This document shows, piece by piece, positions 31,963 through 37,388 of a stretch of 51,698 nucleotides of DNA. The stretch spans positions 1-51,698 of the forward strand of contig PWTK01000089.1 of NCBI GenBank assembly GCA_003563895.1, given 5' to 3'. This DNA is from Syntrophomonadaceae bacterium (GTDB taxonomy: Bacteria > Bacillota > Dethiobacteria > DTU022 > UBA8154). Both the position numbers and the translations under genes were made by a program. How positions within the stretch are numbered: the first letter of the stretch is position 1; every line of letters begins with the position of its first letter. The notes below the pieces were generated by a model. That model was not told the origin of the DNA. It worked only from the letters and a program-made list of their open reading frames with translations, and did not search any database.

Positions 31963-32634
31963 ATGGAAACCGCAGCCGGTGTCGTAAAATTCATTCTCGA
32001 TAACAGCGGCCGCATCGCAGAATACGCCGGGAATCACTTTTCCCTGGTGCTGACCGTGCTGGCCTTTTCCCTGGTCTTATGGATTTCGGTAGGCCTCTTC
32101 ATCAGCAGGCACGACCGCCTGGCCGGCGGCGTGATCGGGCTGGCCAACGTGCTCTTTGTGATCCCGAGCATCTCCCTGTTCGGCCTCTTTGTCACCATTC
32201 CCCAGCTGGGCCTGGGCCGCAGCTCGGCCGCGCTGGCCCTTATCCTATACGCGATGATGCCGCTGGTGCGCAGCGTGTACCGCGGGGTGAAGTCGGTGGA
32301 CCGTTGGGTTATCGAGGCCGGCCGGGGGATGGGCATGTCGGAGATGCAGATCCTCTTCCAAATTCAAATCCCGATGGCCTGGCCGGTGGTTTTCGCCGGC
32401 ATCCGGGTCGCCGTGGTCATGATCACCGGCATGGCCACCGTGGCCACCTTTATCGGCGAGCGAAACCTCGGCCGCCTGATCCACCACGGCATCACCCGCG
32501 GCAACGCAGAGATGATCATCGCCGGCGCAGTGGTGGTCGCCTTGATGGCGCTGCTGCTGGATTATGCCATGGGACTGATTGAGAGGAAAGTCACTTCGCC
32601 CGGGCTGCGGCACGGGGACCGGGATTTGCAGTAA
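31963..32634 (+). CDS. opuCB: Osmoprotectant (quaternary amine) ABC transporter, permease 1
   Basis: A 223-residue permease of the OpuB/OpuC type with five or six hydrophobic segments. The coupling region EAGRGMGMSEMQILFQIQIPMAWPVVFAGIR is the conserved EAA loop that contacts the ATPase. First gene of a four-gene operon: permease, ATPase, permease, binding protein. AGGAGAAAAGGG precedes the ATG. The transported compound is a compatible solute such as glycine betaine, choline or carnitine; which one cannot be told. Whether it is OpuB or OpuC is arbitrary here. Confidence 0.88.
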   Translation: METAAGVVKFILDNSGRIAEYAGNHFSLVLTVLAFSLVLWISVGLFISRHDRLAGGVIGLANVLFVIPSISLFGLFVTIPQLGLGRSSAALALILYAMMPLVRSVYRGVKSVDRWVIEAGRGMGMSEMQILFQIQIPMAWPVVFAGIRVAVVMITGMATVATFIGERNLGRLIHHGITRGNAEMIIAGAVVVALMALLLDYAMGLIERKVTSPGLRHGDRDLQ

Positions 32635-32652: not shown

Positions 32653-33624
32653 TTGATTCAGCTGGAACGGGTCAAAAAGGTCTTTCCCAACACCGCCGTG
32701 CCGGCGGTGGACGAGCTCAGCTTTACCGTGGAACAGGGGAATGTCTGCGTGTTCGTCGGGCCGTCAGGCTGCGGCAAAACGACCATCATCAGGATGATCA
32801 ACCGCCTGGTGGAACCCACCAGCGGCAGCATCTTTATCGACGGGGAAAACATCCTGCAGGTGGACAGCGACCGGCTGCGGCGGCGCATCGGGTATGTGAT
32901 CCAGCAGGTCGGGCTGCTGCCCCACCGCACCATTGAACAGAACGTCGGCCTGGTGCCGCGGCTGCTCAACTGGCCGGAAGACCGAATCGCGCGGAGGGTC
33001 GCGGAGCTGCTGGAAATGGTCGGCCTGGACCCCGCAGAGGCGGCGCAGAAATACCCTTACCAGCTGAGCGGCGGCCAGATGCAGCGGGCAGGGGTGGCCC
33101 GGGCTCTGGCGGCAGATCCGCCGATCATGCTGATGGACGAGCCCTTCGGCGCGGTCGACCCCATTCTGCGGGGGCGGCTGCAGGATGAATTTTTGAGGCT
33201 GCAGCGGGAAGTGCAAAAGACCATCTGCTTTGTAACCCACGACATCAATGAAGCCCTTAAGATGGGCGATTACATCGTGGTACTGAACGCCGGAAAGCTG
33301 GTACAGAAGGGAACGCCCATGGAACTGCTCTCCAGCCCGGCCAACGATTTTGTGAAGGCGCTCATCGGCGACGACCGCGGCGTAAAGCTCCTGGATTTGA
33401 CGAGGGCGGAATCGCTGGTGGCAGACGGGTCAATAAAATCCCCCGCGGTAAAGGACTGCTCCTGCTTCATCGACGCCCTCCAGCCGGTAAAAATGGCCCT
33501 GGAACAGATGATGAAGCACGACACGGACAGCGTCGGCATCCGCCGCGGCGATGAGGTGATCGGCGCCCTCACGTGGGCGGAAATCAAGAAACACATTCAC
33601 AGGATCAGCGGTGATGAAGGATGA
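32653..33624 (+). CDS. opuCA: Osmoprotectant ABC transporter, ATP-binding protein
   Basis: A 323-residue ABC ATPase. Walker A is GPSGCGKT (residues 36-43), the signature is LSGGQMQRAGVARAL, Walker B is IMLMDEPFGAVDP, and the H-loop His sits in CFVTHDINEALKM. The C-terminal 70 residues (DALQPVKMALEQMMKHDTDS and after) form a single CBS-like half, whereas OpuCA normally carries two CBS motifs for ionic-strength sensing; the protein is about 50 residues shorter than Bacillus OpuCA. The TTG at 32653 is used because the nearby ATG at 32645 meets a stop after three codons. The stop overlaps the next ATG by 4 nt (ATGA). Confidence 0.9.
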   Translation: MIQLERVKKVFPNTAVPAVDELSFTVEQGNVCVFVGPSGCGKTTIIRMINRLVEPTSGSIFIDGENILQVDSDRLRRRIGYVIQQVGLLPHRTIEQNVGLVPRLLNWPEDRIARRVAELLEMVGLDPAEAAQKYPYQLSGGQMQRAGVARALAADPPIMLMDEPFGAVDPILRGRLQDEFLRLQREVQKTICFVTHDINEALKMGDYIVVLNAGKLVQKGTPMELLSSPANDFVKALIGDDRGVKLLDLTRAESLVADGSIKSPAVKDCSCFIDALQPVKMALEQMMKHDTDSVGIRRGDEVIGALTWAEIKKHIHRISGDEG

Positions 33625-34265
33625 ACTTTGGACTGGACCGGTTTATCGAAGCCATGCTCTACCGATCTCCCCCATATATCCTGGAGCACGTCCAGCTGGT
33701 TTTAATCCCGCTGGGAATCGCCGCCGCCATCGCATTTCCGGCGGGGGTTTTGCTGACCCGCCCCCGCTTCCGGCGCTATACCGGCCGGGTGATGAGCGTC
33801 TTTAACGCCGGGCAGACCATCCCCCCGCTGGCCGTGATCGCCCTTTTCTTCCCTTTCCTGGGCCTGGGCTACCGGCCGGCGCTGATCGCGCTGACCCTCT
33901 ATGCCCTGCTGCCCATCGCCCGCAACACCCTGGCCGGCCTGGCCGGGGTGCCGTTCGAAGTGAAAGAGGCGGCTCGCGGCATGGGGATGACCGGCTGGCA
34001 GGTCCTGACCCAGGTGGAAGTCCCCCTGAGCCTGCCGGTGGTCATCTCCGGGCTGAAAACCTCGGCCGTGCTCACCGCCGGCACGGCCGCACTGGCGGCC
34101 CTGGTCGGGGGGAAGGGGATGGGGGCGGTGATCTTTGCGGGCATAAACTTTTTCCGGGTGGAGCTGATCCTGGCCGGCACCCTCTACATCGGGATCATGG
34201 CCCTCTGCCTGGACCGTCTGCTTTCTTTTTTCGAAAGCCGCATCACCCCTTCGCACATGAAATAA
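33621..34265 (+). CDS. opuCD: Osmoprotectant ABC transporter, permease 2
   Basis: A 214-residue permease, paralogue of the first one. It has about five hydrophobic segments and the EAA-type loop EVKEAARGMGMTGWQVLTQVEVPLSLPVV. Its ATG overlaps the ATPase stop codon, so translation is coupled. Together with the first permease it should form a heterodimeric channel. The C-terminus ends in a short basic tail. Confidence 0.88.
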   Translation: MNFGLDRFIEAMLYRSPPYILEHVQLVLIPLGIAAAIAFPAGVLLTRPRFRRYTGRVMSVFNAGQTIPPLAVIALFFPFLGLGYRPALIALTLYALLPIARNTLAGLAGVPFEVKEAARGMGMTGWQVLTQVEVPLSLPVVISGLKTSAVLTAGTAALAALVGGKGMGAVIFAGINFFRVELILAGTLYIGIMALCLDRLLSFFESRITPSHMK

Positions 34266-34410: not shown

Positions 34411-35388
34411 ATGAAACGTTACATCATGCACGCTGTCGCCCTGGCGGCCATCCTGCTGCTGGCCTTTGCGGCCGGCTGCCAGCCAAATGGCGCGCCTGAA
34501 GAAGAAGCGGTCGGCGAAGCGCCGGAAGGCCCCATGAGGCTGGCGACCCCCGCCGAGTGGACCGAGCGGGCTGACGGCCTGCCCAACTTTGAAGCCCATT
34601 ACGGGTTTGAGTATCCCCGGAACGAGCTGGTCATCGTGGAGCTGGGGTTGGCTTACCAGGCGGTCGGGACCGGCCAGGCGGAAGTGGGCATCGGCGATGC
34701 CACGGAAGGGCGCATCGCCCAGTACAACCTGGTGGTCCTGGAGGACGACAAGCAGTTCTTCCCCGCGTACAACCCGGCACCGGTGGTGCGCCAGGAAATC
34801 CTGGATACTTACCCGGAAATCGCGGACATCATGGAAGAGCTCTCCGTGCTGCTGGAGCTGGAAACACTAACGCTGCTGAACAAAGAGGTGGCGGTGGAGA
34901 ACCGCCAGCCGGAAGATGTGGCGTGGGATTTTCTGGTTGAGCAGGGCCTGATCTCCGGAGATGAACCGCAGCCCGACCCGGCAAAAGACACTCCGGTCGT
35001 GGTGAGCGGCAAGACCTTTGCCGAGGCGCTGACGCTCGGCTACCTCACCGTCTACCTGCTGGAAGACCGGGGCTTCACCGTGGTGGACGAGGTTGGCCTG
35101 GCCGAGGTGGCCCTGATCCGTCCGGCGCTGGAGTCGGGCGAAATCGACATTTACTGGGAATATACCGGGACCGGCCTGATGAACGTGATGGGCCACGACG
35201 AGGTGGTCACCGATCCCCAACGCTGCTACGAGCTCATCAGGGATTGGGACCTGGAAAACAACGACCTGGTTTGGCTGGATTACGCCCCGGCCAACAACAC
35301 CTTTGTCCTGTTCATCTCCCCGGAGGTCTACGAGGAAAAGGGCTGGACCCGGATATCGGACCTGGCCGCCTATTTCCAGGGAAGCTGA
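34411..35388 (+). CDS. opuCC: Osmoprotectant-binding lipoprotein, circularly permuted OpuCC type
   Basis: A 325-residue solute-binding lipoprotein: signal peptide, lipobox AAGC with Cys23, acidic linker, then two binding-protein halves. Residues about 42-181 (FEAHYGFEYPR.., TEGRIAQYNLVVLEDDKQFF, APVVRQEILDTYPE, NKEVAVENRQPEDVAWDFL) correspond to the C-terminal half of ordinary OpuCC, while residues 194-325 (VVSGKTFAEALTLGYLTVYLL.., SGEIDIYWEYTGTGL, LVWLDYAPANNTF, ISDLAAY) correspond to its N-terminal half. The order is thus swapped, with linker 182-193 at the joint. It captures a quaternary amine outside the membrane for the three upstream genes. The ATG follows GGGAGGGG. A 145-bp spacer separates it from the permease. 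Confidence 0.88.
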   Translation: MKRYIMHAVALAAILLLAFAAGCQPNGAPEEEAVGEAPEGPMRLATPAEWTERADGLPNFEAHYGFEYPRNELVIVELGLAYQAVGTGQAEVGIGDATEGRIAQYNLVVLEDDKQFFPAYNPAPVVRQEILDTYPEIADIMEELSVLLELETLTLLNKEVAVENRQPEDVAWDFLVEQGLISGDEPQPDPAKDTPVVVSGKTFAEALTLGYLTVYLLEDRGFTVVDEVGLAEVALIRPALESGEIDIYWEYTGTGLMNVMGHDEVVTDPQRCYELIRDWDLENNDLVWLDYAPANNTFVLFISPEVYEEKGWTRISDLAAYFQGS

Positions 35389-35529: not shown

Positions 35530-36591
35530 TCACTTTTCCGCCGCCGCAAGGTCTCCTCGGAAAGCGCGGGGCGACAGGCCCAGCTTCACAAACACGGCCG
35601 GCGCCAGGAAAGTGATCCAGAAACCGCCTAAAGCGAAGCGTAAAATGAAAAGAGGCAGCGGGTGCGGGGGAAGCAGGCCGCCCAGGCCTGCGACAATGGC
35701 AAGGAGCCCCCCCAGCCCGAGGGCGATTTTCAGCAATTGCTTCGACCATGCGGCCTTCGGCTCATGGTTGATGAATCGCTCCTCCAGCGCATAGCCGGGA
35801 GCAGCCCCGGCCAAAAGACCAAAAATCACAGGAACCTGGCTCCCTGTAAGCGTAAAGGCCAAAAACAACGGTATACCGGCACCCAACACTACCTGCAAAG
35901 GCAGGAGCCATGACAGCGCCGCATTCGGTTCGGCGCTGTTTTTTTCTACAAAAGGCCGCTTTCCCCACCAGAATATAAATGCCAGAAAGAGAAAGCCGAA
36001 CACCCACCCGCCCATTATGTCGCGAGCAAAGTGGTAGCCGAGGATCATCCGGGATAAGCCCACCATGGCAATCACAACCGCCGTCCATATCCAGAACGCC
36101 CTGCTTTTCACCATCACCGCCAGGTACCCCCAAAACGCGATGGTCATCAGCGTATGTCCGCTGGGAAAGGAATGGCTGGCGGGAAGATCCACCCCCTCCA
36201 CGGCAGGCCTTGCCAGGGCAAAAAAATCCTTTAAGGCGTGCGTCCAGGCCCCCGAGAGAAGCAGCACCGCGGCCGTCCAAAAACCCAGTTTTTTATCGAA
36301 GCACCACAGCAAAACGGGCAGGGCCAGCAGGTAAAACTCATTATCCCCCAGGAAGGTGAAGGACTGGAAAAAAACCTCCACCGCCGGCCTTTCGCTCTGA
36401 AACGACACCAGGGATTCGATGGCTCCCTGGCTCCCCAGAGGCTCCCAGAAAATGATGAGCAGGGCGGCGCTCGCAGCGGTCAGAATCCAGCAAAAACTGC
36501 GCCAGAACCGCTCGGCTTCCCGCCGGTATGAAAAGTGCTGCCCGGAACGGCCGAAGCTCAACAAGGGACCACCTTCCTCGTTCTTTGACAT
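35530..36591 (-). CDS. PAP2-family membrane phosphatase
   Basis: An integral membrane protein with about eight hydrophobic segments and the acid-phosphatase signature of the PAP2 group: KDFFALARP, SFPSGHT, and SRMILGYHFARD, which together supply the catalytic His and Asp and the phosphate-binding Arg. It should dephosphorylate a lipid phosphate such as undecaprenyl pyrophosphate or phosphatidate; the long C-terminal membrane region beyond the PAP2 core is unusual for short family members but common in the DUF-type fusions of Clostridia. The ATG at 36591 has no ribosome site; TTG codons at 36564 and 36561, after GGAAGGTGG, are likelier starts. Confidence 0.85.
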   Translation of the reverse strand: MSKNEEGGPLLSFGRSGQHFSYRREAERFWRSFCWILTAASAALLIIFWEPLGSQGAIESLVSFQSERPAVEVFFQSFTFLGDNEFYLLALPVLLWCFDKKLGFWTAAVLLLSGAWTHALKDFFALARPAVEGVDLPASHSFPSGHTLMTIAFWGYLAVMVKSRAFWIWTAVVIAMVGLSRMILGYHFARDIMGGWVFGFLFLAFIFWWGKRPFVEKNSAEPNAALSWLLPLQVVLGAGIPLFLAFTLTGSQVPVIFGLLAGAAPGYALEERFINHEPKAAWSKQLLKIALGLGGLLAIVAGLGGLLPPHPLPLFILRFALGGFWITFLAPAVFVKLGLSPRAFRGDLAAAEK

Positions 36592-37021: not shown

Positions 37022-37388
37022 GGGCATGAGCAAACCTGTAAGCCGAGTTCTGTAGTCCCGAAAGGGACGGCAGCCATCTATCTTGGACGCCAGTTGCCTG
37101 ACGCCTCCAGCGACTTCTACCCGAAGGGTCGGCGGGCCGCCTCATCCCCCTCCTATTCAGTCTTGCACCGGGTGGGGTTTACCTAGCCAGCCGGTCGCCC
37201 AGCTGCTGGTGCGCTCTTACCGCACCGTTGCACCCTTACCCTTTTCCCGTAGAAAAGGGCGGTTTCTTTCTGTGGCACTTTCCTTAGGGTCGCCCCCACT
37301 GGGCGTTACCCAGCACCCTGCCCTGTGGTGCTCGGACTTTCCTCGAGGATGCCGAACATCCCCGCAGCTGCCCGGTTTACTCATGCCC
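37022..37388 (-). ncRNA. rnpB: RNase P RNA (bacterial class A)
   Basis: The catalytic RNA of ribonuclease P, which trims tRNA 5' ends. On the minus strand the 5' part reads GGGCATGAGTAAACCGGGCA, then GAGGAAAGTCCGAGC (universal CRI block), and the 3' part ends with AACTCGGCTTACAGG and TTTGCTCATGCCC. The two ends pair to form helix P1 (GGGCATGAG..CTCATGCCC), which sets the boundaries. The presence of conserved A-type elements and the total length of about 370 nt fit class A. A consensus promoter lies 60-85 bp upstream. Confidence 0.95.

Follow-up and report, generated by a model that had tools for sequence, protein, structure and literature searches.

A circularly permuted OsmF/OpuCC-type substrate-binding lipoprotein and the recurrence of its half order within Bacillota

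The substrate-binding lipoprotein encoded at the end of an ABC-importer operon in the window (the whole analysed stretch of DNA, 51,698 nucleotides) is a circularly permuted member of the OsmF/OpuCC branch: half A, which comprises the lobe II repeat and the old C-terminal part and normally comes second, precedes half B, the lobe I repeat. Among its relatives the permuted order is polyphyletic: in the Bacillota members of this branch the half-swap took place on several occasions, some of which may have been reversals to the normal order. It is very probable that the protein acts as the lipid-anchored, ProU/OpuC-type receptor of the importer encoded upstream and that the same swap is recurrent in the branch.

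The window receptor and its operon

The receptor gene (Table 1) is an open reading frame of 325 codons with an ATG start and no internal stops, preceded by the Shine-Dalgarno sequence GGGAGGGG. The first-pass annotation had described an intact signal peptide and lipobox, a linker between the halves, and conserved residues retained on both sides of it, and all of these are present in the sequence. The lipobox AAGC supplies Cys23, the linker SGDEPQPDPAKD connects the old C-terminus to the old N-terminus, and the motif residues are found in half A (LATPAEW 44-50, TERADG 51-56, DATEGR 96-101, FFPAY 116-120) as well as in half B (SGKTFAE 199-205, EYTGT 250-254, NNTF 295-298, ISDLA 315-319). Furthermore, Y248-W249-E250-Y251, N121 and D112, for instance, are invariant, and K201 is almost so.

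Table 1. Positions in the window of the importer genes and of the segments of the permuted receptor
Feature	Position	Strand	Evidence
ABC permease subunit 1 (BPD_transp_1, ProW-like)	31963..32634	+	Pfam PF00528 1.6e-20; NCBIfam ProW
ABC ATPase, ProV-like	32653..33624	+	Pfam PF00005 2e-35; TIGR01186 proV
ABC permease subunit 2 (BPD_transp_1)	33621..34265	+	Pfam PF00528 2.2e-24
Circularly permuted OsmF/OpuCC-type substrate-binding lipoprotein	34411..35388	+	Pfam, phmmer, AlphaFold, Foldseek
Signal peptide and lipobox AAGC, residues 1-23	34411..34479	+	sequence
Half A, residues 44-181, normally second half	34540..34953	+	OsmF 4wep 135-280; OpuAC profile 114-255
Linker SGDEPQPDPAKD, residues 182-193	34954..34989	+	sequence
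Half B, residues 194-323 (lobe I repeat), normally first half	34990..35379	+	OsmF 4wep 2-132

The ATPase and both permeases share an operon with the receptor, the organization by which ProU/OpuC systems are recognized, and the receptor gene is the last. For permease subunit 1 the best NCBIfam model is ProW (2.7e-21, under its cutoff), and the proV model scores the ATPase at 320.1 bits, slightly short of the cutoff of 326.6. The order permease-ATPase-permease-receptor recurs in most relatives with a covered operon, permuted or normal; an ATPase-first operon is found in one permuted group, P3 (L172), and in its normal-order relative L014. Judged by family and operon, the substrate is probably a quaternary-ammonium osmolyte (glycine betaine, choline or similar). 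This assignment is a guess, since the branch also includes ergothioneine receptors, acetylcholine-sensor scaffolds and others, and ergothioneine receptors of the EgtUC type are among the PDB sequence relatives of the window receptor.

Several neighbouring and related loci were also recorded. Directly downstream of the receptor, in convergent orientation, lies a gene for a PAP2-family membrane phosphatase (35530-36591, minus strand), which on visual comparison looks similar to the PAP2 protein encoded in a conserved cassette in two other loci (L161:7360-10154 and L163:7354-10106). In that cassette a permuted receptor without its own permease is flanked by a 249-aa membrane protein, which has no Pfam match and appears dolichol-kinase-like to the eye, and by the PAP2 phosphatase; this receptor has possibly been repurposed. 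The window also carries a complete bacterial RNase P RNA of class A (37023-37383, minus strand, 317.9 bits). A normal-order receptor is present in the window's own genome (L002:7-771, G000:C19), with about 43-44% identity per half and cut at the contig end, and the single-contig genome G351:C1 holds the whole operon with a permuted receptor in two tandem copies (L160:7136-14515).

Order of the halves and predicted fold

The reversed order is readily apparent from the alignments to solved structures. The best PDB sequence relative in phmmer is E. coli OsmF (4wep), in which chain residues 2-132 align with residues 194-323 of the query, and chain residues 135-280 with residues 40-180. In all 27 PDB sequence relatives (OsmF/ProX/OpuCC/EgtUC type) the second chain half aligns to the first half of the window receptor, and a profile of 34 permuted proteins gives likewise swapped matches to the PDB at 164-220 bits. 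The Pfam family OpuAC (PF04069) is matched with 157.6 bits, above the gathering cutoff of 21.2, in two stretches that are not colinear; the best one pairs residues 41-175 with profile positions 114-255 of 257, and the other half lies behind it. Similarly, the NCBIfam OsmF equivalog NF049931 reaches 178.9 bits in two stretches, under its cutoff of 400. When L013, a homologue of normal order, is used as a control query, 4wep and 1sw2 are each matched in a single colinear stretch. Because the matches to solved relatives are swapped in the window receptor and colinear in the control, the cut is placed after the ISDLA helix and before the LATPAEW strand. Chance or an assembly error is excluded by the existence of 36 distinct permuted receptors from about 30 independent genomes, one of them a single contig.

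The permutation proposed in the first-pass annotation is confirmed by these Pfam and phmmer results, and its placement by sequence in the OpuCC/OsmF branch, not with OpuAC, is upheld by the agreement of the Pfam, NCBIfam and PDB searches. Neither of the outcomes that would have spoken against it, halves in normal order in a profile alignment or a predicted structure lacking the type-II fold, was observed. The receptor shares its Pfam family, conserved motifs, operon partners and predicted lobe folds with OsmF/YehZ, OpuCC/OpuBC and archaeal ProX (4wep, 4nd9, 5nxy, 1sw2), at 30-36% identity per half with OsmF, OpuCC and ProX. It differs from them in the reversed halves and in a lipid tether on the other lobe, and the relationship is non-colinear both by sequence search and by structure search.

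The AlphaFold2 model, calculated from an alignment of the window and locus sequences, shows a complete two-lobed receptor with a mean pLDDT of 90.1 and a pTM of 0.83, the signal peptide and the lead being its low-confidence part. Together with Foldseek, it gives the type-II binding-protein fold that had been anticipated. Ranks 1-5 of the Foldseek search are B. subtilis OpuAC (2b4l, 2b4m, 3chg), with 296-302 aligned columns, 12-13% identity and a TM of 0.48-0.53 by query length, whereas OsmF, ProX and OpuCC show 30-36% identity, yet over only about 138-148 columns. Near-full-length close matches to the model are solely OpuAC, and the nearest sequence relatives match one half. In sequence, the profile of permuted proteins gives no match to 2b4l at E up to 1. 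A circular permutation is known to relate OpuAC to the ProX-type receptors (PMC2395249), as the first-pass annotation had noted, so the window receptor has arrived at the OpuAC layout from within the OsmF/OpuCC branch. Since the chain topology corresponds to that of B. subtilis OpuAC nearly throughout, at such low identity, the likeness is convergent: a known layout has been arrived at, not a new one.

Within the model, the succession of strands and helices is alike in half A and half B, and hhalign detects a weak similarity between them (E 0.001, probability 20%). Binding proteins are thought to stem from two ancestral repeats, by duplication and swapping (PMC9815098). The likeness of the halves fits such a two-repeat origin, so the half order of the window receptor would correspond to an exchange of the two ancestral repeats.

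Alternatively, the permuted receptor might be a copy that has begun to decay or has taken on another role and has ceased to serve the importer. Such a fate would suit the P8 group, which has no adjoining permease and is flanked by a conserved membrane protein and a PAP2 phosphatase. It is poorly compatible with the window receptor, whose operon is complete and whose conserved motifs are retained, which has relatives of identical half order at 79-83% identity and which yields a high-confidence predicted model; the interpretation is consequently regarded as quite improbable.

Distribution and junctions of the permuted order

HMMs served to find the two halves in every locus collected. This gave 148 distinct full receptors, of which 36 have the permuted order (A-B) and 112 the normal one (B-A). 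The permuted ones fall into eight groups: P1, the window group (L001, L004-L006, L085, L086); P2 (L087); P3 (L133); P4 (L088, L162, L092); P5 (L089, L091); P6 (L007, L134-L137, L160); P7 (L090); and P8 (L096-L098, L100, L102, L106, L108, L109, L125, L161, L163, L164). Many loci are metagenome-assembled, and P2, P3 and P7 are represented by one genome each, mostly such assemblies. Outside Bacillota, the permuted order was sampled with patterns derived from the window receptor only.

In every permuted group the cut falls in one loop, the one that separates the fold's two ancestral repeats, with the new C-terminus a few residues beyond the ISDLA helix and the new N-terminus immediately ahead of the FATDHEF/LATPAEW strand. 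Linker length ranges from 10 to 14 residues across the groups and is 12 in the window receptor. The C-termini of P4 and P5 are alike (GVPAP or similar), and the hinge of the normal-order sister of P5, INSGAEAPVPGGWV, corresponds to the permuted C-terminus INSGVPAP-stop and to the permuted N-terminal lead ending in DPGWV or GGGWV. One further locus was ruled out as a case of the same swap, since its cut differs: in a Planctomycetota MAG (L055:4863-5828, JAGYMJ010000675.1; one genome) a third chain order, B20-125, A, B2-26, is observed, in which the cut lies inside lobe I and the first strand and helix of that lobe (TLTVGSKHFTEQEILGEMMALLIEHY) are relocated to the C-terminus.

The receptor tree was calculated with IQ-TREE under a mixture model from 74 rows in which the halves had been brought into one order. 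It requires eight order changes, in the best tree and across the 5-95% bootstrap range, and at least six are forced by well-supported branches. Separate trees of half A and half B require nine and eight changes, respectively, and the tree of the adjacent permease, a separate and non-permuted gene, seven (7-8), at least five of them forced. The search for further members, suggested in the first-pass annotation as a way to see whether the order marks a clade, answers this in the negative: permuted receptors turn up in many parts of the tree, and at least 5-6 of the switches between orders are well supported.

Constrained trees lead to the same picture. Holding all permuted members together, a test set by the finding itself, is 581 log units worse (AU p 2.3e-9), and a single clade of permuted receptors is rejected under the models used. 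Because the sub-groups were named after the tree had been viewed, their p values are indicative: holding the window group and L087 together costs 120 log units (AU p 1e-40), holding P4 and P5 together costs 85 log units (AU p 2e-9), and holding P6 and P8 together is not rejected (AU p 0.42), so that these two may share a single origin.

A permutation that arose only once, the scatter being due to tree error or to horizontal transfer of one permuted lineage, would account for the common cut loop and similar linker lengths, for the joining of P6 and P8 without cost, and for the shared terminal residues of P4 and P5. It is very improbable in view of the cost of one clade, the rejection of P4 with P5 and the agreement of the half A, half B and permease trees in showing polyphyly. 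Moreover, a transferred permuted gene cannot end up inside a normal-order clade. Permuted L087 shares 80% identity with L173, which has normal order, but 61% with the window receptor. The identity of normal-order L149 to L089 and L091, both permuted, is 84%. With normal-order outgroups as root, parsimony allows eight gains and zero losses, while one gain would entail eleven losses on the best tree.

A few early gains, perhaps two to four, followed by repeated return to the normal order through further swaps, would also produce such a distribution. Equal-cost parsimony is locally blind to gain versus loss, P4 and P5 have the GVPAP C-terminus in common, and the normal-order receptors L126, L112, L127, L171 and L149 are interspersed among these two groups. 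Against this, eight gains without loss are as short as any mixture when the outgroups have normal order, and the hinges of the normal members resemble intact ancestral loops. Such a history is therefore considered unlikely. Parsimony allows the reading with eight gains but does not prove the direction of each switch.

Proposed mechanism and significance

Under the preferred reading of recurrent swapping, the receptor would be lipid-anchored at Cys23, its two lobes would very probably close around a quaternary-ammonium compatible solute, and the solute would be passed to the complex of two permeases and one ATPase encoded just upstream. The old termini are fused via the 12-residue linker, and new termini lie in the loop that runs from the ISDLA helix to the LATPAEW strand, where the two ancestral repeats that make up the type-II binding-protein fold meet. 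Because the cut is at this boundary, the swap of repeats would leave fold and cleft unaltered and produce the OpuAC layout, the sole necessary mechanical change being the move of the lipid tether from lobe I to lobe II. Alongside the substrate and the effect of the tether, we infer functional equivalence with normal-order receptors.

The swap was very probably made several times in Bacillota without the gene leaving its type of operon, perhaps through duplication with deletion or through transposition of one half. No duplication relics, i.e., leftover A or B fragments, were found beside the permuted genes, and as a consequence either DNA-level route can only be proposed. Fused tandem intermediates were rejected as well: L062 and L072, the candidates, hold two separate normal-order genes that are not fused.

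Natural circular permutations are usually regarded as rare single events that divide old families. A natural precedent in a lipid-anchored ABC receptor is Treponema MglB-2 (Tp0684), a permuted glucose receptor that still binds its ligand, for which the authors proposed tethering as a possible driver of permutation (PMC4990184). In contrast to the window receptor, MglB-2 has a type I fold and another cut site, and in the available portion of that paper it is presented as a single related family, repeated switching not being reported there (PMC4990184). The open-licence literature searched yielded the OpuAC/ProX and MglB-2 permutations, and described neither a permutation inside the OsmF/OpuCC branch nor repeated switching at one site there. 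What appears to be new is the repeated switching at one site within this branch, the permutation between ProX and OpuAC having been known before.

For annotation, order-dependent methods such as the OsmF equivalog model and colinear structure search give permuted receptors low scores or detect only one half of them. The permuted and normal proteins that are 80-84% identical and reside in like operons constitute matched natural pairs, suited to tests of how chain order and tether position affect folding, lobe dynamics and docking on the ABC importer. More tentatively, the order of the repeats may be a labile trait that is switched again and again, either by a recurring DNA process or by selection on the lobe that carries the tether, and permutation might then represent a recurrent adaptive change in this receptor branch, as opposed to a rare accident.
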